From a virus, in the IMG/VR virus record IMGVR_UViG_3300048778_000640, positions 1-36,979 of that record: 36,979 nucleotides of DNA; one strand, written 5' to 3'. Of the stretch, positions 3,413-27,682 are shown in pieces (the stretch's first letter is position 1; every line of letters starts with the position of its first letter). Under the pieces are notes generated by a model. It was not told where the DNA came from, made no database searches, and saw only the letters and a program-made list of their open reading frames with translations. The position numbers and the translations under genes are program-made.

Positions 3413-4066
3413 TCAAGCAATCAATTTTCCTACGGCAAACGCTGCCCCCGCCGCGATTCCGCTGACCGCGACAACCCCCAGAATGCTCTTCCAGGGATTG
3501 CTGCCAACTGCTCTCGCCTTCGCATAGCCGAAACCAACCAGGGTAACCAGCGTAACGACGATTGACCACAGCAGCGCCCTGTAGGGCGTTGGCACAACGA
3601 AATACGGTGCCAGGGGGATGCACCCCGATACCAGATACGCCAGGCCCACGACAGCGCCACTGGCTGCAGCCTCATTTCTGGCCGGCCGGCACAGGTCAAA
3701 CTCATTCAGGAGCAGGAGATCGATCCAGCGCTGCGGATTGGCCTTGAGCGTCTCCACGACAGGCTGTATCTCCTCCGAAGTCAACCCGTACTGAGAGAGC
3801 ACCTGCACGCTTTCCTGCACCTTCTCCGGCACTGGCTCACTGTACTCCACCGTCTCTTTTCCGCGGTAGTAATCGACGTCGCTCTGTGTCGCCAGGTAGC
3901 CTCCCAGCCCCATGGAGATCGTCCCGGCAACGATGGAGGAGATCCCGGCCACGATGATCGCGGTGTTGTGGGTCACGGTGCCAGAGATGCCGGCCGCCAA
4001 GGCGAAAGGGACGGTCAGGCCATCCGACATGCCGATGATGATGTTATGAATCGCGTTGGAAGCCAT
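3413..4066 (-). CDS. VIT1/CCC1-family metal ion transporter
   Basis: A 217-residue membrane protein. The first helix carries GMSDGLTVPFALAAGISG, the family signature around the first substrate-binding helix. The second helix runs to MGLGGYLATQSDVDYYRGKE. A soluble acidic domain at about 72-130 is the metal-binding insert of VIT proteins, and three further helices follow. Family members export Fe(II)/Mn(II) from the cytosol, usually by proton exchange. The commonly seen Gly-Glu-Tyr at the end of helix two is Gly-Gly-Tyr here, so a conserved acidic side chain may be missing. It lies between the tail-fibre genes and the lysis cluster, downstream of a terminator, and is unusual cargo for a phage. 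Confidence 0.85.
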   Translation of the reverse strand: MASNAIHNIIIGMSDGLTVPFALAAGISGTVTHNTAIIVAGISSIVAGTISMGLGGYLATQSDVDYYRGKETVEYSEPVPEKVQESVQVLSQYGLTSEEIQPVVETLKANPQRWIDLLLLNEFDLCRPARNEAAASGAVVGLAYLVSGCIPLAPYFVVPTPYRALLWSIVVTLVTLVGFGYAKARAVGSNPWKSILGVVAVSGIAAGAAFAVGKLIA

Positions 4067-4529: not shown

Positions 4530-7241
4530 TTAAAGCGGCGCTGGGTTCGGATACGGCAGGCACTTCCAGGTGGAGTCCGAGTGCACGATCTGTGCTCCTG
4601 AGCTGTGCCGTGCCGTGACTAGCAGGCCTGCCGGGTTCGGATCTGGGAATGAGACGTGGCTGCCCTTGACCGCTATGATATGATTGCCCGCTGGCATCGG
4701 CAGCGTTACCGAGTAGATGTTCGTCACTGCGTTTACCGCCGTCCACGTCACCGTGAATGCCGTACCCGTCGGAATCTCATTTGCATCGTAGACATACAAT
4801 TCCAGCGAGTTCCCAAAATCATAACTCCCTCTGGCCCAGTCAATCATGTTCGCTGAAACAAATGGATCTTGACCAGGAATGCATTTCACATAAATAGGCG
4901 CTCCCATTGCCACATCAACCGGGAAGCCCACACCCCCGCTGCACTCCAGGAAATTCGCTGCTGGCCCCTCGCATGTGACCTGGAAGATTGTCGTTCCGTC
5001 TGCTGGCGGAATCGGTATCCCCATACTCAATCCTGACAGTCCATACCAATTATTCCAGACGCCAGTGTATGCGACCACTTGACCGCCGTACTTATTGAAG
5101 TCCCCGGAAAGAACCGGCGATCCGTCCACGTACATCAAGAAGTCGCTATCTCCAACTGCGTCGATTGTGATGTAGTCCTCTGTCGTCAGCGTGAATTTAC
5201 ACCTGAAGTAATTATCTCCGATCGGTTGGTTCACGTCAGACAGTTCTGCGCCGAGACCATCTCCTCCGAGCGGTTGCGTACCCCATGTCCACCACGCTGT
5301 CCCATCGACCCAGCCAGGAGGCGTCTGCCATATATTCGGGCTGTAATGGGTTGGCGCTGCTGCCGTGCAAAGCTCCAGTGCCGTCTGCCACCAGCTGTCA
5401 TCATAGTTAAGCTCATACCAATGCACCAGGCTGACTGGCTCACCGAATGTGACCAGCGTAATCGCTGCTCCCGCCGCCGTCCCCGCCGCCGTCGTCGGGA
5501 CGTCCGTCCCCTCCGGGTAAACCCAGACGCCCGTGGTCGCTAGCTGACCTTGGTATGCGCCCCTAATCGGCTGGCAGATCAACTGGAATGATGACCCAGC
5601 GAAGGCTGACGCTATCGTCGCCTGAATATTCGGCGAGCAGAAGATCTGGGACACCGGCGTCGCCAGCGTGAATTGCACGCCTACCGCCGAGTACGGTGCG
5701 CTGAAAAGCTGCGGCACCAGTTCCACTTCATTCGGCTCGCTCTCTGGTCCATCGACGTAAACTCCCGGCCACTCGCCCGTCCAGTCCGGCCCGATCTGCA
5801 CGGCGTCGATGTATGCGTTCGTGTCTCCTATGTTGTCGATGCGGATTGCGACCGGCCCTCCGGTTACGCTCGCTGCCACGTTGCATGTCCGCATTGCCGT
5901 CGTCAGCGTGCCGCTGGCGTCCATGCTCGCCCAGTCCGGCGAGCAGTTGACCTCCCAGCCGTATGGTGCTGGCACCTGCATCATCGTGCCGCCGATCATG
6001 TAGCTGAGCGGCACCGGGCTGCCTCCCTGCAGCACCGTGATCTTGATCTGCCCCTGTCCTTTAGCCTGTAATGCGATCCGTGTCCCTCGCTGGCACCATG
6101 ACCACCAGCCCGGGTCAGCCAGCAGCGTGCCTGTCTGAACCACGTACTCGCCCGGGGCCAGCTTCAGACTGTAATCTCCCACAAATGCGGCATCGTCCGA
6201 GACGCATCCGCTCGTTTCCCAATATGCGGGCAGCAGCGTCTCCGGGTCGAAATTCTCAAAGCTGCTGTTGGCGCACTTGTTCGGGTAGCACGTCACAAAG
6301 TTGGGGTTCAACCCGAATTGATCCGAAATAACCGCCGTGTTCGCCGCCAGCTGCGTCAGCCCCGCCGCTGCTGTTATTGTCGTCCCTGCATAATCCTGGC
6401 CGAGCATGACCGCTCCGCTGGTCTGTTTGACCAGGCAGATGTTAGCAAACTTCCCGGCGTCGCCCGATGTGACGACCGTCACAGTCATATTGCTGACCGA
6501 CTTTGTGTCGTCCGCCGTGATCATGCTGCTGATGTTGTACCATAGGCCGGTCATGATGTAGCCCTGCGCTGGCACCGTGAACGTGTCGATCGTGCTGTCC
6601 GAGTAACCTATCGTGACCATGATGTACGCGTTCATCTGCACCGATGCGGGCGTGTACGCTGTGGCCGGTAGCCAGTCCGCTGTCAGCTGAAATACGGTCG
6701 GTGTCTCTTGCGACCCGATGCTCTGGGACATGCTGGCTGTCGCCTCAAACTCAAAGCAGAAGTTGCTGCCATCGCTGACCACTGTGACGCCGGTCGCTGT
6801 CCAGTCTGTCAAACCATCCCCTGCCGAGCCATTTGCCAGCAGGTTGCCGCTGTATGTCACTGGCGGTATTGGCGTCGCTCCCTGCGTGAACGTCGGTGCT
6901 CCCATTGCTCCCTGTGCTGGAATGCCAGCCGGTACCGGGAGAGCCAGGCCAAGATTCGGCGCTCCTGCTGCTGCTGGCGTGGGAAGCCCTGCCGGGCTGA
7001 TCTTACCCGTCCACTCCGGTGCGCCGATCGCTGCCAGTGACGGAAGACCTGCCGGTGCGGGGTATGATCTGCTCAACCGTGGAGCACCGATCGCTGACGG
7101 CGAGGGCATCCCTGCCGGTGTCACCGATTGCAGCAGTCCGAGCTGCCCGCTTGAGTTATCGCCGAACGCCGTAAATGTGCCGTCATCGTTCAGGATAAAC
7201 GTGAAGTCTGCGCCTGCAAATGCCGCGACTGGCGTAGCCAC
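4530..7241 (-). CDS. large tail fibre / receptor-binding protein, RCC1 start plus jelly-roll-like domains
   Basis: A 903-residue ORF starting at GTG (7241), the codon directly after the TAA of the upstream ORF and in the same frame. Residues 1-35 are one complete RCC1 blade (DGTFTAFGDNSSGQLG). Residues ~40-125 contain four Pro/Ala/Gly repeats of the form PAG(L/M/I)P...AIGAP. Two or more beta-rich, Trp-containing domains follow (about 130-280, 325-495, 600-770), reminiscent of carbohydrate-binding jelly rolls (NLLANGSAGDGLTDW; SSFENFDPETLLPAYW). Position at the end of the tail module and this architecture indicate an adhesin on the tail tip or side fibre. Exact domain families and receptor are not known. 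Confidence 0.8.
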   Translation of the reverse strand: MATPVAAFAGADFTFILNDDGTFTAFGDNSSGQLGLLQSVTPAGMPSPSAIGAPRLSRSYPAPAGLPSLAAIGAPEWTGKISPAGLPTPAAAGAPNLGLALPVPAGIPAQGAMGAPTFTQGATPIPPVTYSGNLLANGSAGDGLTDWTATGVTVVSDGSNFCFEFEATASMSQSIGSQETPTVFQLTADWLPATAYTPASVQMNAYIMVTIGYSDSTIDTFTVPAQGYIMTGLWYNISSMITADDTKSVSNMTVTVVTSGDAGKFANICLVKQTSGAVMLGQDYAGTTITAAAGLTQLAANTAVISDQFGLNPNFVTCYPNKCANSSFENFDPETLLPAYWETSGCVSDDAAFVGDYSLKLAPGEYVVQTGTLLADPGWWSWCQRGTRIALQAKGQGQIKITVLQGGSPVPLSYMIGGTMMQVPAPYGWEVNCSPDWASMDASGTLTTAMRTCNVAASVTGGPVAIRIDNIGDTNAYIDAVQIGPDWTGEWPGVYVDGPESEPNEVELVPQLFSAPYSAVGVQFTLATPVSQIFCSPNIQATIASAFAGSSFQLICQPIRGAYQGQLATTGVWVYPEGTDVPTTAAGTAAGAAITLVTFGEPVSLVHWYELNYDDSWWQTALELCTAAAPTHYSPNIWQTPPGWVDGTAWWTWGTQPLGGDGLGAELSDVNQPIGDNYFRCKFTLTTEDYITIDAVGDSDFLMYVDGSPVLSGDFNKYGGQVVAYTGVWNNWYGLSGLSMGIPIPPADGTTIFQVTCEGPAANFLECSGGVGFPVDVAMGAPIYVKCIPGQDPFVSANMIDWARGSYDFGNSLELYVYDANEIPTGTAFTVTWTAVNAVTNIYSVTLPMPAGNHIIAVKGSHVSFPDPNPAGLLVTARHSSGAQIVHSDSTWKCLPYPNPAPL

Positions 7242-8363
7242 TTACATCACCTGCTCCGGCGTGCTGACGTCCGCTGTCAGGCCGTCGCCTAACTGCCCGG
7301 CGCTGTCATACCCCCAGGCCCAGACGTCCCCGTCGCTGTCTACGGCGATGCTGTGGTATTCGCCTGCTGCTATCGAGACGATGTCGGAGAGCGCCGTCAC
7401 CTGCGTCCATGTGTTGAGATTGGTCGTGTCGCCTTGCCCGAGTTGGCCGTGATTGTTCAGGCCGGTCGCCCAAACGTTGCCGCTGCTGTCCAAAGCCAGC
7501 GAGTGATAGCCGCCTGCTGCCACGGCGGTGATGCCGGCCAGCTCCGTTACCTGGGTGAATGCGGTTTCCTGCGGCCTGGTGTACGGCGCTGTTGGCGGCG
7601 TGAAGTTTTCAGTCCAGCGGGCGATACCCTTGCTGAACCTAAATTCCTGCAGGAAGCCACGGGTGTTTTTCCATTCTTCTCCCTCGTTGCCTATCACCAT
7701 GGGGACAACGATGCCAGTTGGAATTGCCACGGCATTGACGGTCGTGTAAATCAGGTTGCCATTCAAAAAGAAGTACCACGTCGTTCCCTGTCGGCAAACT
7801 GCTATATGCTGCCATCCGTCTGCGATTATCGGGTTGGTTGTGTTGCCCGGTCCTATTAGCGTTGCACCGCCTGGTGTTTGGCTTACAAATACTATACCAG
7901 CCTGCGAGGAATTGTAGCCAAAGAACCACTTATTGTAAGAACCAGGTTGGCTATCCAGGCCGCACCAATCCTGCGCATTCGTGTCCGCTGGGTTGAGCCA
8001 GAAATCAATCGTAAAATCCCCGGAAATGTTTAGGCTCTCGTCGGGCTGTGCTATCTCCAGGTATGCGCTGCCGTCAAAGTAGCCAGATGATGTCTGACCA
8101 ACCATCGCCTCTGCTGTCGAAGTTACAGCACTTCCTTCTGCCGTGACTGTCTTCTGATTTGCAAACGATGAATCTGGGAATGATGTTCCGCCGTTTGCTC
8201 CTTGGCAATGGAGCATGAGAACCGTATATTTATCGATACCACCGGTGCCTGTGTCGATGCCCAGTTGCCCATATGTGTTGTCTCCCGCGCCGAAGACCAC
8301 GCCGTCCGCCCGCAGCAGTAGCGAGTGCGCTACGCCTGCCGAGCCTTTCGTGTATACTGCCAT
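7242..8363 (-). CDS. RCC1-repeat tail protein with inserted LamG/concanavalin-like domain
   Basis: A 373-residue protein. Residues 1-36 form an RCC1 blade (GVAHSLLL...FGAGDNTYGQLG). Residues ~45-265 form a laminin-G/concanavalin-A-like lectin domain (SGYFDGSAYLEI, FTIDFWLNP, GWQHIAVCRQGTTWYFFLNG, RGFLQEFRFSKGIARW). Residues ~270-373 hold two more RCC1 repeats (AAGGYHSLALDSSGNVW, AAGEYHSIAVDSDGDVWAWG). The third repeat is cut at the TAA, and the register continues in the next ORF. Such a propeller with an inserted lectin domain suits a host-surface-binding tail component. Start ATG 8363 follows GGGGGTG. Confidence 0.85.
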   Translation of the reverse strand: MAVYTKGSAGVAHSLLLRADGVVFGAGDNTYGQLGIDTGTGGIDKYTVLMLHCQGANGGTSFPDSSFANQKTVTAEGSAVTSTAEAMVGQTSSGYFDGSAYLEIAQPDESLNISGDFTIDFWLNPADTNAQDWCGLDSQPGSYNKWFFGYNSSQAGIVFVSQTPGGATLIGPGNTTNPIIADGWQHIAVCRQGTTWYFFLNGNLIYTTVNAVAIPTGIVVPMVIGNEGEEWKNTRGFLQEFRFSKGIARWTENFTPPTAPYTRPQETAFTQVTELAGITAVAAGGYHSLALDSSGNVWATGLNNHGQLGQGDTTNLNTWTQVTALSDIVSIAAGEYHSIAVDSDGDVWAWGYDSAGQLGDGLTADVSTPEQVM

Positions 8364-13713: not shown

Positions 13714-13783
13714 AATTTTCACCTCCGAAAGAAGGAATTTGGCATTTTATGCGTAAAATATATCGAGAAAGGGGGAATTGGTG

Positions 13784-14770
13784 ATGTCAGATGAAATAAT
13801 TGGATACCGATGCCCCAGTTGCAAAACCATAAACCCCAAAAATGTTACGTACTGCACCCATTGCGGATCATGGCTTTTAGATACGGTTCACGAAGCGCAG
13901 CCGGTAAGGAGAAGCGATTTTTCCAAACCTTCAAATCATGCATCGCCACATTATAATCGTACAAACACTGATAAAAAGAGTAATACAAAGACTTCTTGGG
14001 TAGTATTTATCACAATTGTAGTTTTTTTTATTTATTTTTGTTGGCCTAAAACTCAGGTTGTGCAAGCAATTCATTATCAGCCAGATATTTCAACTACATC
14101 CAAAGACTACAGTTGGACATATAACAATGAGAAGTATGCCTGGCATGTAGAAGTTCCAAATGATTTATTAGAATGGGATAGGCAGATAAATAGTACTGTT
14201 TTAACTTTTTATGACGGCAATAACAATGGTTATACTCAACAAGCCATGGAAATGACAATGCCGGACAATGAAAAGGAAATCGTTTTAGCTTGCTCTACTG
14301 ATGGCGATATTAGATTATTAGCAACTGAAGTACAAAATTATGACTATATTGTAAATCTGGCTGTGAATTTGAACGCGCAAGCTGAGGAAAATAACTTTAA
14401 TGCAGTACAAAAGATAGAATTCATACAAAGTTTTGTTGGTGGCGCTATTCCATATGTCGTAAACGCTGAGGATCAACTCCCTGCTCAGACATTAATTGAT
14501 GGTGGCAATTGCGAAACTAAATCAATACTCTTAGCCTCGATTCTAAAATATCTCAATTATAAAGTTGCGTTGCTCGATTTTAAGAATCAAAATCATATGT
14601 CTGTTGGAATAAGTACAGACTCATCAGATATTCCAAATACTGCAATATATTTTCAAGCTGCAGATGGAACAAAATATTTTTATCTCGAAACAACAGAACC
14701 TGGATGGACGTTTGGAGCGGTTCCTACCGATCAAAATTATGTCGATCCACAAATTATTCCAATAAAATGA
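13784..14770 (+). CDS. plus-strand moron: zinc ribbon, membrane helix, transglutaminase-like domain
   Basis: The only gene on the plus strand: 328 residues from ATG 13784, eight bases after AAAGGGGG. Order: zinc ribbon with C10, C13, C24 and C27; a polar linker; a membrane helix at ~71-88; then an outer domain containing GGNCETKSILLASIL (Cys243), QNHMSVG (His271) and FYLETT (Glu302), the Cys-His-acid order of transglutaminase-like proteases. A cytosolic ribbon and an external catalytic domain are predicted. Codons are strongly A/T-ending (AAT, AAA, TTA, GAT), unlike the neighbours. It interrupts the tail module between chaperone and tape measure. Likely horizontally acquired and expressed in the lysogen; substrate unknown. 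Confidence 0.85.
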   Translation: MSDEIIGYRCPSCKTINPKNVTYCTHCGSWLLDTVHEAQPVRRSDFSKPSNHASPHYNRTNTDKKSNTKTSWVVFITIVVFFIYFCWPKTQVVQAIHYQPDISTTSKDYSWTYNNEKYAWHVEVPNDLLEWDRQINSTVLTFYDGNNNGYTQQAMEMTMPDNEKEIVLACSTDGDIRLLATEVQNYDYIVNLAVNLNAQAEENNFNAVQKIEFIQSFVGGAIPYVVNAEDQLPAQTLIDGGNCETKSILLASILKYLNYKVALLDFKNQNHMSVGISTDSSDIPNTAIYFQAADGTKYFYLETTEPGWTFGAVPTDQNYVDPQIIPIK

Positions 14771-20268: not shown

Positions 20269-21579
20269 TTAGGAACGCTGAGCCAGGGCGACGAAGGGGC
20301 TCAGGATGTTGCTGCCCTTGAACGGGGTCAATCCGACCTGCCAGATTGGCTGCCCATCGACGCGGTAGATAAACCGGAAAACCGACTCATCGTACAGGAA
20401 CCGGACGTGGATGGACACGGCTGACTGCACGCCGGGCTCCTTATCGGTCAATACGTACTGCCCCAGGTCGAGCAACATGATATCTCCCGTATTGCCCATG
20501 GTGTCCGCCTGCTCAATCGCGATAGCCGGGCGCCCGAACAGCGTGCCGTACGGTGTCGATGACAGCCCACCGGGCGGCAGCCAGACAGGAATACCACCGG
20601 TACCCACAGGCAGGCTCATGGTATTCATCTGCGGCTCGCAGTCCTGGTTATAGAACCATGCAGCGGTCATACGGCTGCGGTTAAAGCAGTGCATCCACAT
20701 CTTCTGGATGTTCTCAGTCACGATCGTCGCGGCGGCCTGGTTGGTTTCTTTGGCCACCGTCACCAGAGATCCGGAGTTCAGCACGCCCATCGGCATACCG
20801 GCGCCGGTGCCGCGGATGATCGAATCGTCGAGTTTGAAGCCAAATTCCTCGGAGAACCCCTGCATGACCACGGCCTGGAGAGCGGCCGCATCCTGGAGCA
20901 GTTCGTCGGTGGCGTAGCAAAGCCCGGTCAGTTTCCGGAGGCGCAGGTCGATCTGGCGGAACTTGGGCTTGGTGCCGGTTAAAGCATCGGCCTCACCTTC
21001 CCAGTAAGCCAGGATACCGCCCCAGCGGGAGCCATCTGTTCTCGCACGCTCATCAACGGAGTTGATCTTGAGTTCGTTGCTTGTGGTCGGGATTCTCCGG
21101 CAGCGGGAGGCCAGGACGCCGGTCTCGTATGTCCGGAGCAGCACCTCCTGGGCAAACTCAGGAGCCACTAAAAAACCGCCGTCACTCGGCACGCTTTCTG
21201 ACATGCCGGACGGTCCGAGGCGCATCTCCGTGTAGCGCTGCAACCTCGAGTCGATGACCCTCGCCTGCGGATCGCCGGCGGCGATGACAGCCATGAGTTG
21301 ATCGCCGAAGGAGCGGAACCCCATCTTGGGATCATCGGTGTTGGGATCGTTCTTGCCGGCAGGCGGCATCCCTTTACCGATCGTGCCCTCGATGCCGAGC
21401 AGCCTTTCCTCGCGGTCGATGCTCTTCCGCAACTGATCCGCCGCAGTCATGATGGCGTCATAGGCCGCGTCGTCAGCTTCCACCCAGGCCCGCTTGTCGA
21501 GGTCGATCTTGTCCAGATAGGCTCTCGCCTCCTGGATTTTTGCGGCCAGGTCGCGCCGCATCTGTAGGATCTTTTCCAT
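20269..21579 (-). CDS. major capsid protein, HK97 fold
   Basis: A 436-residue protein. Residues 1-~110 form a coiled-coil delta/scaffold domain (LQMRRDLAAKIQEARAYLDKI ... IDREERLLGIE). The mature shell part starts near GPSGMSESVPSDGGFLVAPEFAQEV, with typical downstream motifs (LRLRKLTGLCYATDELLQDAAAL, FSEEFGFKLDDSIIRGTGAGMPMGVLN, GDIMLLDLGQYVLTDK, FRFIYRVDGQPIW). The delta domain would be removed by the protease encoded just upstream. AAGGAG lies six bases before the ATG, and an intrinsic terminator separates it from the protease gene. Confidence 0.96.
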   Translation of the reverse strand: MEKILQMRRDLAAKIQEARAYLDKIDLDKRAWVEADDAAYDAIMTAADQLRKSIDREERLLGIEGTIGKGMPPAGKNDPNTDDPKMGFRSFGDQLMAVIAAGDPQARVIDSRLQRYTEMRLGPSGMSESVPSDGGFLVAPEFAQEVLLRTYETGVLASRCRRIPTTSNELKINSVDERARTDGSRWGGILAYWEGEADALTGTKPKFRQIDLRLRKLTGLCYATDELLQDAAALQAVVMQGFSEEFGFKLDDSIIRGTGAGMPMGVLNSGSLVTVAKETNQAAATIVTENIQKMWMHCFNRSRMTAAWFYNQDCEPQMNTMSLPVGTGGIPVWLPPGGLSSTPYGTLFGRPAIAIEQADTMGNTGDIMLLDLGQYVLTDKEPGVQSAVSIHVRFLYDESVFRFIYRVDGQPIWQVGLTPFKGSNILSPFVALAQRS

Positions 21580-21650: not shown

Positions 21651-23279
21651 TTAAAGCCCTCTCGTCAATAATTCCAGTCTCTTGCGCGCCAGCAATAGAT
21701 TGCGCCCCGCAATCGCCGCCGGCACAATGGAACTGTCATCCGGAGGTTTCGCCCCGTCCCCTCCGGGCGGTAAATAGCTCTGAAGCGCCTCGATTGACGC
21801 ATTTATGATGTCGAGGTCTGCCGGGTATAACTGCAGGCCCCGCTGCGCCCTGAAAATCACATTGGCCAGAAGCTTGAAGTCGATGCCGTTGACCTCATCC
21901 CCGCCAAGGGACCGCGAACTGAGATCGGTCTGCGGATAGGCCGGGAAGGTCACCGGAGAGATATCATAGAGCTTGACTTCCTTGAGCTCCCGCCGGTTGT
22001 TGAAAGCCAGAGGCCCGTAGTTGCTTGCCTGCGGATCTCCCGGTTCAGTAAACCAGTTATCATCGAGCGTGCTGAACCCAAAAGAGTTCTGAGTGATATC
22101 CCCACGGTCGATGCTCTCCAGAAGATCCCGGGCATAGGTCGTACCAGGAGCCTTGATGCGATAGGCGAGACCCTGCTTATCCTCAGACAGATCCAGCGTG
22201 CCAGCTCGATTGCGCCCCAGCACCAGGTTGGAATCGTGGTTGAACAGCGCCCGGATGTCATCGGTCTGGATGGTGCCGGTGAAAGCCCCGGGAAGAACTC
22301 GCTCGGTGAATCCCCCCAGGTCCTCAGACCACTGGTTAAATACTGCCGCGTGCCCCTCGATAATGGACTTGCCGCCCTGATCGGAGACCCTGATCTCCCC
22401 GGCCGGAATGTAGCGGCGTTCAATGCCACCGATTGCCCGGCAGATTGCCAGGATGGAGCTGCTACGCTTGAGTTCCGGCGGTTCGAGATCGGCGTCTCTC
22501 AGGTGAGCGGCAAGATGGTTATAAACCCCTTGCACGTCAGCATCCGGGATTGTAGTGCCGCCCTGGGCGCCATTCAGGTTGCCAATCCCAGATTGGCAGG
22601 CTTTGATATTTGCATTACCTACATCTCCGGAATCAGAGACCATGTGATGCCAAAAGCGGTAAGAGTGTTTGGCGGTTGGATCTCCAGCGGGGTCTACCCA
22701 GGCGGCTCCCTTGCGCAGCGTAGCCTCGCTGGCATCATCCGGAACCTTTTTCAGATTCTCACCAACATCCCAGGGCTGACTTGATGTCCCCGTATGATGT
22801 ACCGGGATCGCCTTGCGGAAACTCTTGATCTGGAAATTCCTGAGACTGCGATTATTGTTGGCGCAGGTCAGACAGGTCTGGAGATCGCAAGCCCTGCAGC
22901 TGCAATTTTCGCAATCCTGATCCTGACAGGTGGCGCAGGTGCAGCCAACACAATCTCCCCTGGCGCATCTACCGCAGCGGCAATTCTGGCAATCGTCATC
23001 CTGGCAACCAGCGCAACCGGGAGCCGCGCCCCTGGCCGATCTGCGGGATCGCTGCGTGCAATCCTTGCAGTCGTCATTTTCGCACCGGTAGCATCGGCAG
23101 CCGGACCGCAGACAAGATTCTTCCTGGCAGTCAACACACTTCGGGCCGCTGCCGTTGATGTCTCCGAGCGGATCCGTCTGGCAGCCGCGACAATCATCCC
23201 GGGCACACGCACGGCAACTGCAGTCCTCGCATTTATCACCCTTGCAGTTTGAGCATATTGGCCCAGTGCCTTTCGTCAA
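21651..23279 (-). CDS. prohead protease with N-terminal 32-cysteine domain
   Basis: A 542-residue protein with three parts. Residues 9-139 hold 32 cysteines in four blocks of the form C-x2-C-x4-C-x2-C-x-C-x2-C-x4-C-x2-C (block two has x4 at the third gap). Residues ~155-270 are a phage domain seen with portal and head proteins (AIPVHHTGTSSQPW, AAWVDPAGDPTAKHSYRFWHHM, GVYNHLAAHLRDADLEPPEL). Residues ~285-455 are the HK97 prohead protease (GHAAVFNQWSEDLGGFTERVLPGAF), with likely catalytic His348 (ALFNHD) and Ser399 (NSFGFS). It cleaves capsid delta domains during maturation. Ordinary prohead proteases are about 200 residues, so this one is greatly extended. The start follows immediately after the portal stop. 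Confidence 0.92.
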   Translation of the reverse strand: MTKGTGPICSNCKGDKCEDCSCRACARDDCRGCQTDPLGDINGSGPKCVDCQEESCLRSGCRCYRCENDDCKDCTQRSRRSARGAAPGCAGCQDDDCQNCRCGRCARGDCVGCTCATCQDQDCENCSCRACDLQTCLTCANNNRSLRNFQIKSFRKAIPVHHTGTSSQPWDVGENLKKVPDDASEATLRKGAAWVDPAGDPTAKHSYRFWHHMVSDSGDVGNANIKACQSGIGNLNGAQGGTTIPDADVQGVYNHLAAHLRDADLEPPELKRSSSILAICRAIGGIERRYIPAGEIRVSDQGGKSIIEGHAAVFNQWSEDLGGFTERVLPGAFTGTIQTDDIRALFNHDSNLVLGRNRAGTLDLSEDKQGLAYRIKAPGTTYARDLLESIDRGDITQNSFGFSTLDDNWFTEPGDPQASNYGPLAFNNRRELKEVKLYDISPVTFPAYPQTDLSSRSLGGDEVNGIDFKLLANVIFRAQRGLQLYPADLDIINASIEALQSYLPPGGDGAKPPDDSSIVPAAIAGRNLLLARKRLELLTRGL

Positions 23280-23280
23280 G

Positions 23281-25299
23281 TTACTTCCCCCTTTCAGCGG
23301 TTATCATGCAATTACAGCCCCCGATCAGGGGCGGGTGCCCAACCTTCGATTTCGGCGTCACAGATTTGCCGTCTGCAACCACTGAGCCGCCATCGACAAA
23401 GTGCTCATCGATGCCGATGACCTTGCCATCCAGAGACCAGCAGAATGGGCTGTCTTTCGGGTTCGTGTTCCAGCGCTTCTGAGGTATTCCGGAGTTTTTG
23501 TAGACAACCTGAGCGACAGCATTGTTGAGCTGGATCATTTCTCTGCCGGCCACCTTGCCCGGGCGCTTCTGCTCCCACTCGGAAAGCCGCTGGCTGACCA
23601 TCTCCATGGGGCTCTGCCCCTGATCAATGGCCTGGCGGACAACAGCCCGAAGTTGGTCTATCGAGGAATAGGTATATCGCTGGACAAAGGTGCCGAGGTA
23701 AGCGTGGACGAAGTTATCCAGCCCATCCATGGTGGTATCCGCATCACCGCCGATGCCGATCTCGTCTGCGGCCAGGCCGTGGACCTCCTCGCCATAGGTC
23801 TGCATCACCGGTTTCATCTGGCGGCTCATGAAGTCGTAGAAGTTGCCGTAGTAATCGTTGAGCCAGTTGTCGAAGATGAAACCGCTGTCATTGCGTAGCG
23901 ACTTCTCAGCCCCCCGCTGGACATCGTTAATCTCCCGCCTCACAATCCGGGCAGCCGCGTCCTCGAAGAGGCGCTGGTGCGCCCTGGCCAGCTTGAGCCG
24001 GGCGGTCACTACCTGCTGCGTGCGCTGCTCATAAGTGAGCCGCCTGACAGAGGCCGCCTGGGTATCCCAGTCCTTTGTCGGGGGTGCCGAGGTTGTTCCA
24101 GTGGTGTCGAGAGAGTTGGCTGGCACCATGTTTAGGGGCACCATATACATCTGCCCCTGACCATTTGGCAGAGGGTTCATGTTTTCCTTGCGGCGGACAT
24201 CATCGGCTGACATCCAACCCCACTGGCGGGCTACCGCATAAGCTGCATACCTGCTAGTCGTATCTCCTCGTATGATGGCGTCCAGGGCAAAGTTCGCAAA
24301 ATACTTCTTCCGCTCCTGGGGAAGCATGAGTTTCCAGGTGATTTGCTGCTCCCAGCGAATCACCCAAGGCAGAATCGTGTCGGTAACATGCTCGATAGAT
24401 TGTTGTTCAATGTTGCTGAATGTCGCATCGGAGAGGTCGCCGATCTTGTGTGGCTGCATCCGGTACCAGCGGCAGATCTCCCTGACCTGAAACTGTTTCG
24501 ATTCCAGGAACTGGGCATCATTTGGCGGAACCTGCGTATGGGCTATTGTCATGCCCTCTTCAAGGAGCATCAATTTATGCGCCTTGCCGAGGCCGGCATA
24601 CTTGTCCTGCAGATCCTCTTTGAGGTTCTTATGGCCCTGCTCCGTGAGTTTGCTGGGGTGCGTGACAACCACGCCAGGATGCAGGCCATTACCGAACAGG
24701 GCAGCGCCGAATTCCTCATAGGCCTGTCCAAGGCCAACAGACTCCCTAGCCATGGCGATGACCGAATAGCCTTTGGTGCCATCGAAGCCCAAACCTACCA
24801 CGTGGAAGATCTGCCAGGCCTGGAATGTGAGCTCATTGCCATCCTTGAGACGCAAGAGATAGATAATCTGGTTGTTGAACCGTTTGACTTTCATTCTGTT
24901 CGGGGGTAGCGGCCAGAGCGCCTTGACCTGGCCATCAAGGCCCCAGTCGATAAACGAATAGCAGTTTCCCCAGAGCGCCAGATGGCTCATCATCGTTTCC
25001 CGCCATGTGAATGCGGTCATCTCAGGGTTGGGTGATGTATGTAGGATTTCCTGGAGTGGATGATCCGGCGCCGCAGCGCATCCCCCCGAAACGGCTTGGT
25101 AGATGTTGAGCGGAAGATGGCCGATGGTTTCTGAAAGAACCCGGACACACGCCCAAACGGCAGAGTATTTCAGGGCATTCTGCTCGTTGATCATGACCCC
25201 CGTCTTTGTGGTCATGCCCCAGCCAATTTCCATCCAGTTGTCGATATCGATCACAGAGGGAATATTGCGAACTTCGAGCTTGCTTGCCAGGTAGCCCAT
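23281..25299 (-). CDS. portal protein fused to MuF-like minor head protein
   Basis: A 672-residue protein. Residues 1-~410 are an HK97-type portal (YSAVWACVRVLSETIGHLPLNIYQ, WRETMMSHLALWGNCYSFIDWG, GLHPGVVVTHPSKL, FQVREICRWYRMQPHKIGDLS, RGDTTSRYAAYAVARQWGWMSADDVRRKENMNPL). Residues ~430-672 match the MuF/SPP1 gp7-like head morphogenesis domain, ending with the usual PFCWSLDGKVIGIDEHF...VGHPPLIGGCNC motif. In most phages these are two genes. The portal is the DNA gate and packaging-motor docking ring; MuF proteins are minor capsid components, some ejected with DNA. GGTGCTTAA context gives direct coupling to the small membrane gene upstream. Confidence 0.93.
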   Translation of the reverse strand: MGYLASKLEVRNIPSVIDIDNWMEIGWGMTTKTGVMINEQNALKYSAVWACVRVLSETIGHLPLNIYQAVSGGCAAAPDHPLQEILHTSPNPEMTAFTWRETMMSHLALWGNCYSFIDWGLDGQVKALWPLPPNRMKVKRFNNQIIYLLRLKDGNELTFQAWQIFHVVGLGFDGTKGYSVIAMARESVGLGQAYEEFGAALFGNGLHPGVVVTHPSKLTEQGHKNLKEDLQDKYAGLGKAHKLMLLEEGMTIAHTQVPPNDAQFLESKQFQVREICRWYRMQPHKIGDLSDATFSNIEQQSIEHVTDTILPWVIRWEQQITWKLMLPQERKKYFANFALDAIIRGDTTSRYAAYAVARQWGWMSADDVRRKENMNPLPNGQGQMYMVPLNMVPANSLDTTGTTSAPPTKDWDTQAASVRRLTYEQRTQQVVTARLKLARAHQRLFEDAAARIVRREINDVQRGAEKSLRNDSGFIFDNWLNDYYGNFYDFMSRQMKPVMQTYGEEVHGLAADEIGIGGDADTTMDGLDNFVHAYLGTFVQRYTYSSIDQLRAVVRQAIDQGQSPMEMVSQRLSEWEQKRPGKVAGREMIQLNNAVAQVVYKNSGIPQKRWNTNPKDSPFCWSLDGKVIGIDEHFVDGGSVVADGKSVTPKSKVGHPPLIGGCNCMITAERGK

Positions 25300-25497: not shown

Positions 25498-27153
25498 TCA
25501 AAATGCGATGACGCCACGGGTCTCGTAGACTGATCGGTTAGAATTATGCAGCATAGCCCTGGCCATAGCGTTAACCAGCGCCACAAACCCGTCAATGCGC
25601 TCAATACCCTTCTTGCCTTTGATTGGCCGGACGTTTTCGTTCTCATCCTGCTTGATGACCAGGTTGCCAAAGTTCCATCTGGCGACAGGATTTCCGCCAT
25701 GCCGGAGTCGCCGGCCGCGGATCAGAGTCTCAATCTCTTTCATGGCCGGACTCATCGTTTTGGATCCCTGGCGCACTTCGACCATAGTCAGGCCTTCATC
25801 GTTTAGCTGAAGCGCAATCTGGTTGGCGTTCCAGGGGTCGAAACCTACTTCCTCGATCTCAAAATTATCCCGGTGGCGCAGAATGATCGCCTTGATGAAA
25901 TCATAGTCAATGATGTTACCTGGGGTGGTCTTGATAAAACCTTCCCTCACCCAGCGGTCGTAGGCAACCTTGTCGCGCTTGACGCGCTCCTTCATGTTCT
26001 CTTCCGGAATCCAGAAATCCCAAAGCACATCCCAGCAGGGATCTCCTATCGGCTGTCTCTTCCAGCGTAGTTGCCGGCGCTTCCGTATATCCGCCACCCG
26101 ACGCCTTGGAACTTTTAAAGTTTTATTGATGCGCCAGCCAGGTTCCAAGGGCGGGAACAAGAGGCAGTGCGCGGTTAGGTCATACCGGGTGGAAAGGTCA
26201 AGACCTCCATAACAGATCCGGCCTTTCAGCTTCTCCGGAATCACAAGCCCTGCGGATGCATCCCATAGATCGAGAGAGAGCCACTTGCTCTGATTCTTAG
26301 TGGTGGGCCATTGATTGAGCCGCAACTGCTGAAATAGCCTCTCTTTGGCAGGATTGTCCTTGGCCCCCAAATACAGATTGCGCACCTTTTCAACAGTTAT
26401 GGTATGGCCGATACTTGGGTTGACCTTCAGCCAGTTATTTTCATCTTCCCAATCATCCTCAGGCTCAAGACCATAGATAACTGCATAGAATGTTGGGTCG
26501 ATTTTTGTGCCGGCAAGGATGGCCTTGGCCTCGCTGTGAACCTCCCAGCCAATGCTTTCATGATCCGGATCATCACCTGCAGTAGTGATGACAAAATTAA
26601 GCGGCTGCGTCCGGGCATCGCCGGCGCCCGTGGTCATCACGTCATATAGCTCCCGGGTAGGCTGGGCGTGGAGCTCATCAAAGATGCAGCAGTGGACGTT
26701 GAGCCCGTGTTTGCTGAATGCCTCCGCCGAGCACACCTGGTAATAGCTGTTGGTCGGCTTGTAAACCAGCCGCTTGACAGATAGGACAGGCTTGATCCGC
26801 TTCTTCAGCGCCGGGCACTGGTCAACCATATCGGCTGCAACATCGAAGACAATCGAAGCCTGCCCCCGATCAGCAGCGCATCCATAGACCTCGGCGCCCC
26901 ACTCACCGTCTCCGCAAAGCATGTAGAGGGCGACGGCCGCAGCAAGCTCCGACTTGCCGTTCTTCTTCGGAATCTCGATGTAAGCTGTATTGTATCGCCT
27001 ATAGCCATCCGGCTTGATGGTGCCAAAGATGTCCCGGATAATTTTATTCTGCCAGGAGAGCAAATCAAAAGGTACTCCATGCCACTTACCTTTCGTGTGC
27101 TTGAGCGCCTTCATGAAGTCAACCGCTATCTGGGCACGTCCCTTGTCGAGCAC
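25498..27153 (-). CDS. terL: terminase large subunit
   Basis: 551 residues from GTG 27153, which follows AGGTGG and begins one base after the small terminase stop; the frame is open to 27204. ATPase domain: Walker A IPKKNGKS and Walker B CCIFDE, with coupling motif VITTAGDD. Nuclease domain: GGLDLSTRYDLTA and GFDPWNANQIA provide acidic residues. It is a Terminase_1 (HK97/P27-partner) type motor that cuts and packages DNA into the prohead. Together with the nearby HNH gene this suggests cos-type packaging (inference). Confidence 0.96.
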   Translation of the reverse strand: MLDKGRAQIAVDFMKALKHTKGKWHGVPFDLLSWQNKIIRDIFGTIKPDGYRRYNTAYIEIPKKNGKSELAAAVALYMLCGDGEWGAEVYGCAADRGQASIVFDVAADMVDQCPALKKRIKPVLSVKRLVYKPTNSYYQVCSAEAFSKHGLNVHCCIFDELHAQPTRELYDVMTTGAGDARTQPLNFVITTAGDDPDHESIGWEVHSEAKAILAGTKIDPTFYAVIYGLEPEDDWEDENNWLKVNPSIGHTITVEKVRNLYLGAKDNPAKERLFQQLRLNQWPTTKNQSKWLSLDLWDASAGLVIPEKLKGRICYGGLDLSTRYDLTAHCLLFPPLEPGWRINKTLKVPRRRVADIRKRRQLRWKRQPIGDPCWDVLWDFWIPEENMKERVKRDKVAYDRWVREGFIKTTPGNIIDYDFIKAIILRHRDNFEIEEVGFDPWNANQIALQLNDEGLTMVEVRQGSKTMSPAMKEIETLIRGRRLRHGGNPVARWNFGNLVIKQDENENVRPIKGKKGIERIDGFVALVNAMARAMLHNSNRSVYETRGVIAF

Positions 27154-27154
27154 A

Positions 27155-27682
27155 TTATCCACCTGATCTCTTGAGCAAAGCCTCCATCGGGTCCGTCTCT
27201 TCATCCGGCGCTGGCAGATTGATTCGAGACCGGCTACTCGGGGTCAATCCGAACTCGGTGCAGAAGGCCTTGAGCGCCGCTAGGGCTTTATTGCCGATGG
27301 CCACCTCCGGCCGCTGCTGCTCATAGCCGCTATCGGTCACATGCTCAACGATGTTGCCCTCTCTATCCTCGTCCCATTCCGACTTGCGGTTCATGACTGT
27401 CGTCCGGCCGGCCTTCTTAAGGTAGAGTTCACACTGGACCCAGATCGCATATTCCTGGCAAACCGCTTCGAAGGCGGCCCCGTCAATCTTAGTGAGGAGG
27501 CCCAGCTTCTCAAGTTGCGGAGCAAGCGCCTTCCAGAGTTTCTTCGCCTGAGGCGCCAACCATGCCGGAGGCTTCGGAGCGATTGGCGTCGGCTTGGGCT
27601 CATTCCGGTTGAGAGGGCGCCGTCCCGGGTTGCCCTCGATCAGTTTTAGATTGGTTGGTTTTGGTTTTCTGCCCCTGGACAT
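27155..27682 (-). CDS. terS: terminase small subunit, P27 family
   Basis: About 175 residues from ATG 27682 (a GTG lies one codon earlier), after AGGGGG. The N-terminus SRGRKPKPTNLKLIEGNPGRRPLNRNEPKP is the P27-family hallmark. A helical middle (WKALAPQLEKLGLLTKIDGAAFEAVCQEYAIW) and LAALKAFCTEFGLTPSSRSRI follow. It recognises the packaging site and recruits the large subunit. The start overlaps the stop of a 38-codon ORF in a TGATG arrangement. Confidence 0.95.
   Translation of the reverse strand: MSRGRKPKPTNLKLIEGNPGRRPLNRNEPKPTPIAPKPPAWLAPQAKKLWKALAPQLEKLGLLTKIDGAAFEAVCQEYAIWVQCELYLKKAGRTTVMNRKSEWDEDREGNIVEHVTDSGYEQQRPEVAIGNKALAALKAFCTEFGLTPSSRSRINLPAPDEETDPMEALLKRSGG

Follow-up and report, generated by a model that had tools for sequence, protein, structure and literature searches.

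Both the recruitment of prohead proteases to procapsids and their removal from these particles are poorly understood. The closest described relatives of the enzyme analyzed here are the HK97-type prohead proteases of family S78 (PF04586, TIGR01543), with which it has in common the protease core, the candidate His and Ser residues, the gene order portal-protease-major capsid protein and a fold model of the assemblin type. Its gene lies on a viral DNA stretch of 36,979 nucleotides (IMG/VR record IMGVR_UViG_3300048778_000640), hereafter called the window. The enzyme differs from these relatives in an N-terminal cysteine array, which was absent from 86 of the 86 relatives bearing the domain that follows the array (the middle domain).

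The protease gene and translation of the cysteine extension

The assignment of the gene product as a capsid maturation protease, made in the initial annotation, was supported by matches to PF04586 (1.8e-44, 152.3 bits, cut-off 21) and TIGR01543 (8.3e-29, 100.6 bits, cut-off 59), which exceed the curated thresholds, and by a match of the protease core to phrog_80 (2e-51). Residues H348, S399 and E326 were invariant in a 44-sequence alignment of relatives. We take H348 and S399 to be the candidate catalytic pair; with the candidate catalytic residues intact, the protease is probably active. For the protease fold model, the only PDB match with E <0.001 was a herpesvirus protease of the assemblin type. 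As in HK97-type S78 systems, the gene sits between those for the portal and the HK97 major capsid protein. The gene, its parts and its neighbors are as follows.

21651..23279, minus strand: prohead protease coding sequence, 542 amino acids, TTG start
22863..23255, minus strand: cysteine array, residues 9-139, 32 cysteines in eight tetra-cysteine units, with homologous blocks in other phages
22464..22817, minus strand: middle domain, residues 155-272, predicted (pLDDT ~90), corresponding to the N-terminal domain of array-less sister S78 proteases
21912..22391, minus strand: S78 protease core, residues 297-456, PF04586
23284..23295, minus strand: purine-rich Shine-Dalgarno-like sequence GAAAGGGGGAAG, directly ahead of the portal stop codon and the TTG start, as read from the sequence
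23281..25299, minus strand: portal protein, next gene upstream, its C-terminal part of the head-morphogenesis (MuF-like) type; phrog_12 (9.9e-116) and phrog_2468
20269..21579, minus strand: HK97-type major capsid protein, directly downstream; phrog_10 (2.2e-40)
25498..27204, minus strand: terminase large subunit; phrog_9

The TTG start codon (23277-23279) and the portal stop codon (23281-23283) are one base apart. Between codons 1 and 213 the protease frame contains no in-frame ATG, GTG or TTG, and codon 213, the first such codon after the start, is located within the middle domain. An intact middle domain can therefore only be made together with the cysteine array. Sister proteases carry an ATG directly before the middle domain (MEVRKAIPVHHT, MGAIGVHHT). 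By this start-codon logic, the cysteine extension must be translated. Exclusive use of an internal start downstream of residue 140, against which the initial annotation had set its reading, fails on the same ground, the next in-frame start being codon 213. An antisense ORF (22794-23252, plus strand) was judged to be a shadow ORF because the minus-strand frame has homologues.

The 32 cysteines described earlier at residues 9-139 (22863-23255) were found at exactly these coordinates. Their proposed arrangement in four 8-cysteine blocks with one variant was retained in that the blocks are present, and was refined to eight C-x2-C-x4-C-x2-C units.

23220..23255, minus strand: unit 1, residues 9-20, CSNCKGDKCEDC
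23181..23216, minus strand: unit 2, residues 22-33, CRACARDDCRGC
23097..23138, minus strand: unit 3, residues 48-61, spacing variant, CVDCQEESCLRSGC
23058..23093, minus strand: unit 4, residues 63-74, CYRCENDDCKDC
22980..23015, minus strand: unit 5, residues 89-100, CAGCQDDDCQNC
22941..22976, minus strand: unit 6, residues 102-113, CGRCARGDCVGC
22902..22937, minus strand: unit 7, residues 115-126, CATCQDQDCENC
22863..22898, minus strand: unit 8, residues 128-139, CRACDLQTCLTC

In unit 3, the third and fourth cysteines are separated by x4 instead of x2. Linkers of 14 residues follow units 2 and 4, and units 5-8 are contiguous with a period of 13 residues, so that the 8-cysteine pattern also matches across the boundary of the third and fourth blocks as originally drawn. 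The corresponding DNA pattern occurred 4 times in the window compared with 0 of 100 dinucleotide shuffles. The cysteines are encoded by 25 TGC and 7 TGT codons. Non-cysteine positions were identical in only 15% of the between-unit comparisons, every cysteine is kept, and no tandem repeat was detectable in the DNA of the array; together this marks the array as an old, protein-level repeat. The keeping of every cysteine thus reflects selection on the protein and not recent repeat expansion. Cysteine accounts for 32 of the 131 array residues (24%) and V, I, L, M, F, W and Y together for 8; there is no histidine. With 22 D/E and 18 K/R, the array is net acidic. Its AlphaFold2 model had a mean pLDDT of 52 and was unusable for the fold or the Cys4 geometry.

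Distribution of the cysteine blocks

The initial annotation knew of no such domain on prohead proteases, and library searches found no described domain. With the array alone as query, Pfam and NCBIfam returned no family up to an E value of 1, zinc ribbons, zinc knuckles and metallothioneins included, and there was no match in PHROGs or among PDB sequences, the latter by sequence search and by profile. A tblastn search of 50,697 phage genomes found no array, a search that the low-complexity filter may weaken. A related-loci search with the array alone gave nothing relevant, and no description of the cysteine module was found in the PMC literature. The array thus stands as a Cys4-type repeat for which this analysis found no described relative. 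It resembles zinc knuckles and ribbons in its paired CxxC motifs and in glycines next to cysteines, but differs in that the CxxC pairs are only 4 residues apart, arranged in tandem, poor in hydrophobic residues and without a Pfam match. With metallothioneins it has in common a cysteine content of about one quarter and the scarcity of hydrophobic residues; the strict 13-residue repeats, the fusion to head proteins and the lack of a match to the Pfam metallothionein families set it apart.

Two of the 86 sister proteases have different N-terminal segments instead of the array. One of them (L159, 2623-3888) is similar to the window protease in carrying a Cys-rich N-terminal attachment, which is, however, a ribbon-like CxxC...CxxC segment and not a tetra-cysteine array; the other is L176. 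Since the sister proteases do without the module, S78 proteases in general do not depend on it, and its gain or loss was shown to be independent of the protease core. A profile search of ~1,150 genomes from phylum-level samples, one of which repeats the Bacillota sample at least in part, yielded no accepted match and detected the viral positive controls. Two weak matches (ORFs of 73 and 108 amino acids) were rejected as incomplete arrays. Prophages of the sampled phyla rarely carry the module.

Protein-agnostic DNA spacing patterns were then run over the 2.9 million viral contigs of IMG/VR, a set from which the closest kin of the window may have been left out. For the plain 8-cysteine pattern, the ORFs inspected among the matches listed were Cys-rich low-complexity frames. 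The pattern was refined so that no codon of the x4 loops could begin with T, which removes repeats of cysteine runs. It matched 22 stretches, 14 of them interrupted or short Cys-rich low-complexity frames and 8 of them long ORFs with the module. These eight ORFs represent five phages (L256 and its copies, L258, L260, L263 and L266): L256, L262 and L264 have identical DNA in the portion of the gene that was compared, L268 encodes the same protein, and the four were counted as one phage. A pattern based on the GxGP flank gave no further genuine carrier. All genuine long-ORF matches of the cysteine-spacing patterns were head-cluster proteins.

The carriers belong to different protein classes. L263, assigned to phrog_94 (2.4e-90), is a head maturation protease of the ClpP type (S14) and is encoded between the portal and the HK97 major capsid protein. 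Its module resembles that of the window protease in the contiguous tetra-cysteine units, the 13-residue period and a GTGP flank, but is C-terminal and attached to an unrelated protease fold. L256 and L266 are XkdF-like, their beginnings resembling those of XkdF-type head maturation proteases, with a phrog_3017 match confined to the N-terminal 30 residues; the L266 gene lies between a MuF-type gene and that for the major capsid protein. L258 and L260 are proteins of phrog_3313 (unknown function), L258 again between portal and major capsid protein. A profile comparison gave no support for classing L258 and L260 as S78-like proteases. Comparison of the middle domain with the module-adjacent domains of L258/L260 and L266/L256 gave hhalign probabilities of 21% and 11%, so that homology is suggestive only. 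An isolated Enterocloster phage encodes a relative of L258/L260 at the equivalent gene position but without the module. Further relatives of these two proteins (L334:4608-6440, L335:4371-6176, L337:4401-6065) have Asp/Glu-rich low-complexity stretches and no cysteine module.

The carriers have in common flanks and cysteines of the form GxGPxCx2CxGGxCx2CxCx2CxKx2Cx2CxETPL; the first block of the window protease reads GTGPICSNCKGDKCEDCSCRACARDDCRGCQTDPL. Similarity beyond the cysteines was assessed by shuffling with cysteine positions fixed, using profiles built without the tested group. With the window left out of the profile, its array scored 64 bits compared with 28 ± 6 for the shuffles, a score reached by 0 of 1000 and 0 of 2000 of them. 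L266, L258, L263, L256 and L260 each scored above all 1000 shuffles. On the basis of these profile scores, the cysteine blocks were shown to be homologous across phages. A second pattern had detected looser cysteine arrays on two phrog_53 (S49-type) proteases, L280 and L298, whose scores were reached by 202 and 15 of 1000 shuffles, respectively; their membership was not established by this test, and their arrays may be convergent. The domain is hence not the one-off that it had first seemed, being present on other head proteins with homology beyond cysteine spacing.

These results bear on whether the array has a specific role at all. As a neutral spacer, it would be a low-cost repeat extension that head proteins tolerate in their linkers and at their ends. 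Such tolerance would fit the acidic low-complexity stretches in module-less relatives of L258/L260 and the sister proteases that do without an array. However, a spacer explains neither that 32 of 32 cysteines are kept while the other positions diverge nor that the similarity between phages exceeds the cysteine spacing, and we regard it as highly improbable.

Possible roles of the array

The module is at the N terminus in the window protease, at the C terminus in L263 and within the chain in the other carriers, and its copy number varies as well, as expected of a self-contained module. Being homologous on unrelated proteins, at varying positions and always in head genes, it more likely serves a common head-assembly interaction than the regulation of one catalytic domain. 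Regulation of protease activity, one of the roles suggested at the outset, is accordingly not specifically supported, the module being fused to unrelated backbones at differing chain positions. The same distribution argues against a redox latch, in which disulfides or oxidative metal release would time protease activation or release. This idea had been raised in the initial annotation and draws on the 32 cysteines adjoining the protease, but the cytoplasm in which assembly takes place is reducing, and we consider it very unlikely. Because the protein works in this reducing environment, a disulfide knot is also less likely than metal coordination as the organizing principle of the array.

Sequences that are rich in cysteine and poor in hydrophobic residues are usually organized by metal when they are in a reducing cytoplasm. 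Since the block lacks a hydrophobic core, a metal-organized fold is most likely. The array may be a mobile mini-domain built of repeats, which has no name in the libraries searched and is attached mostly to head maturation proteases, and in which each 25-residue block of two C-x2-C-x4-C-x2-C units would fold by metal coordination. A block would probably contain a pair of Zn(Cys)4 sites, and the window protease about eight in all. Against this assignment, the two CxxC motifs are joined by a loop of only four residues, which leaves little room for a single Zn(Cys)4 site. Lined up in this way, the knuckles, each small and rigid, could form a multivalent element with a docking or scaffold-like function, which would recruit the protease to the procapsid by contacts with segments of the portal, capsid or scaffold and would be lost once the protease processes itself and leaves. 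We infer metal binding, zinc as the metal, the stoichiometry, the docking and the removal by self-cleavage.

Cys-rich knuckles often bind nucleic acid, and a C-x2-C-x4-C/H-x4-C spacing can be read in the array (C1, C2, C3, C5), so that zinc knuckles that anchor the protease on DNA or RNA while heads assemble were also considered. Against this stand the net acidic arrays of the window protease (22 D/E, 18 K/R) and L260 (7 versus 3) and the looser arrays of L280 and L298, which do not contain any basic residue. The L256 and L266 arrays are net basic; charge is therefore not conserved among carriers, making a simple role in nucleic-acid binding less likely. We assign this role a very low probability.

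Alternatively, a metallothionein-like array could sequester or carry Zn, Fe or Cu as a store or buffer, either to protect assembly or to withdraw metal from the host or load it into the head. The cysteine density and the lack of hydrophobic residues would suit this function, as would a VIT1-family metal transporter gene in the window phage (3413-4066, 3.9e-55) and a ferritin gene near the module protein in the L260 phage. However, VIT1 and ferritin were each present in one of eight carriers, most of the records being fragments, and the module is missing from those relatives of the L258/L260 protein that are accompanied by ferritin (L334, L336). A pure store would not need confinement to head proteins, and the spacing of the array is far more regular than that of classical metallothioneins. 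A storage function is thus unlikely.

Among the roles first suggested for the array, metal-binding blocks with a function in assembly remain the most plausible. Our best explanation, held with slightly less than even confidence, is a mobile metal-folded module that docks head proteins in the procapsid and is attached to proteins of the portal-to-capsid cluster. Carriers are few and the module is rare. More tentatively, it might be a hitherto unrecognized, horizontally shared, metal-clamped assembly domain that serves one head-assembly step in several non-homologous classes of maturation proteins, with metal loading as part of procapsid formation. A small domain common to non-homologous proteins of the portal-capsid slot would separate recruitment or assembly from catalysis and offers a handle for tests. 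Moreover, head assembly would then probably require metal, which is uncommon among tailed phages.

Additional genes in the window and in related phages

The VIT1-family gene of the window (3413-4066, minus strand; PF01988) encodes a putative iron/manganese transporter, is located in the late region and overlaps a neighboring gene. Among 50,697 phage records, tblastn found no match to the transporter with E ≤ 1e-5. Ferritin-like genes lie near the gene of the phrog_3313 protein in three head clusters (L260:1719-2237, L334:3869-4369 and L336:3392-3907), and in Enterocloster and Thomasclavelia phages this gene follows directly on the portal gene. On the opposite strand within the late operon of the window, 13778-14770 (plus strand) encodes a protein with a zinc ribbon and a membrane segment, which resembles an independently expressed accessory gene. 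In the tail region, two consecutive proteins with RCC1 repeats are encoded at 4530-8363 (minus strand), and the one at 7242-8363 also contains a laminin-G/concanavalin-like domain.
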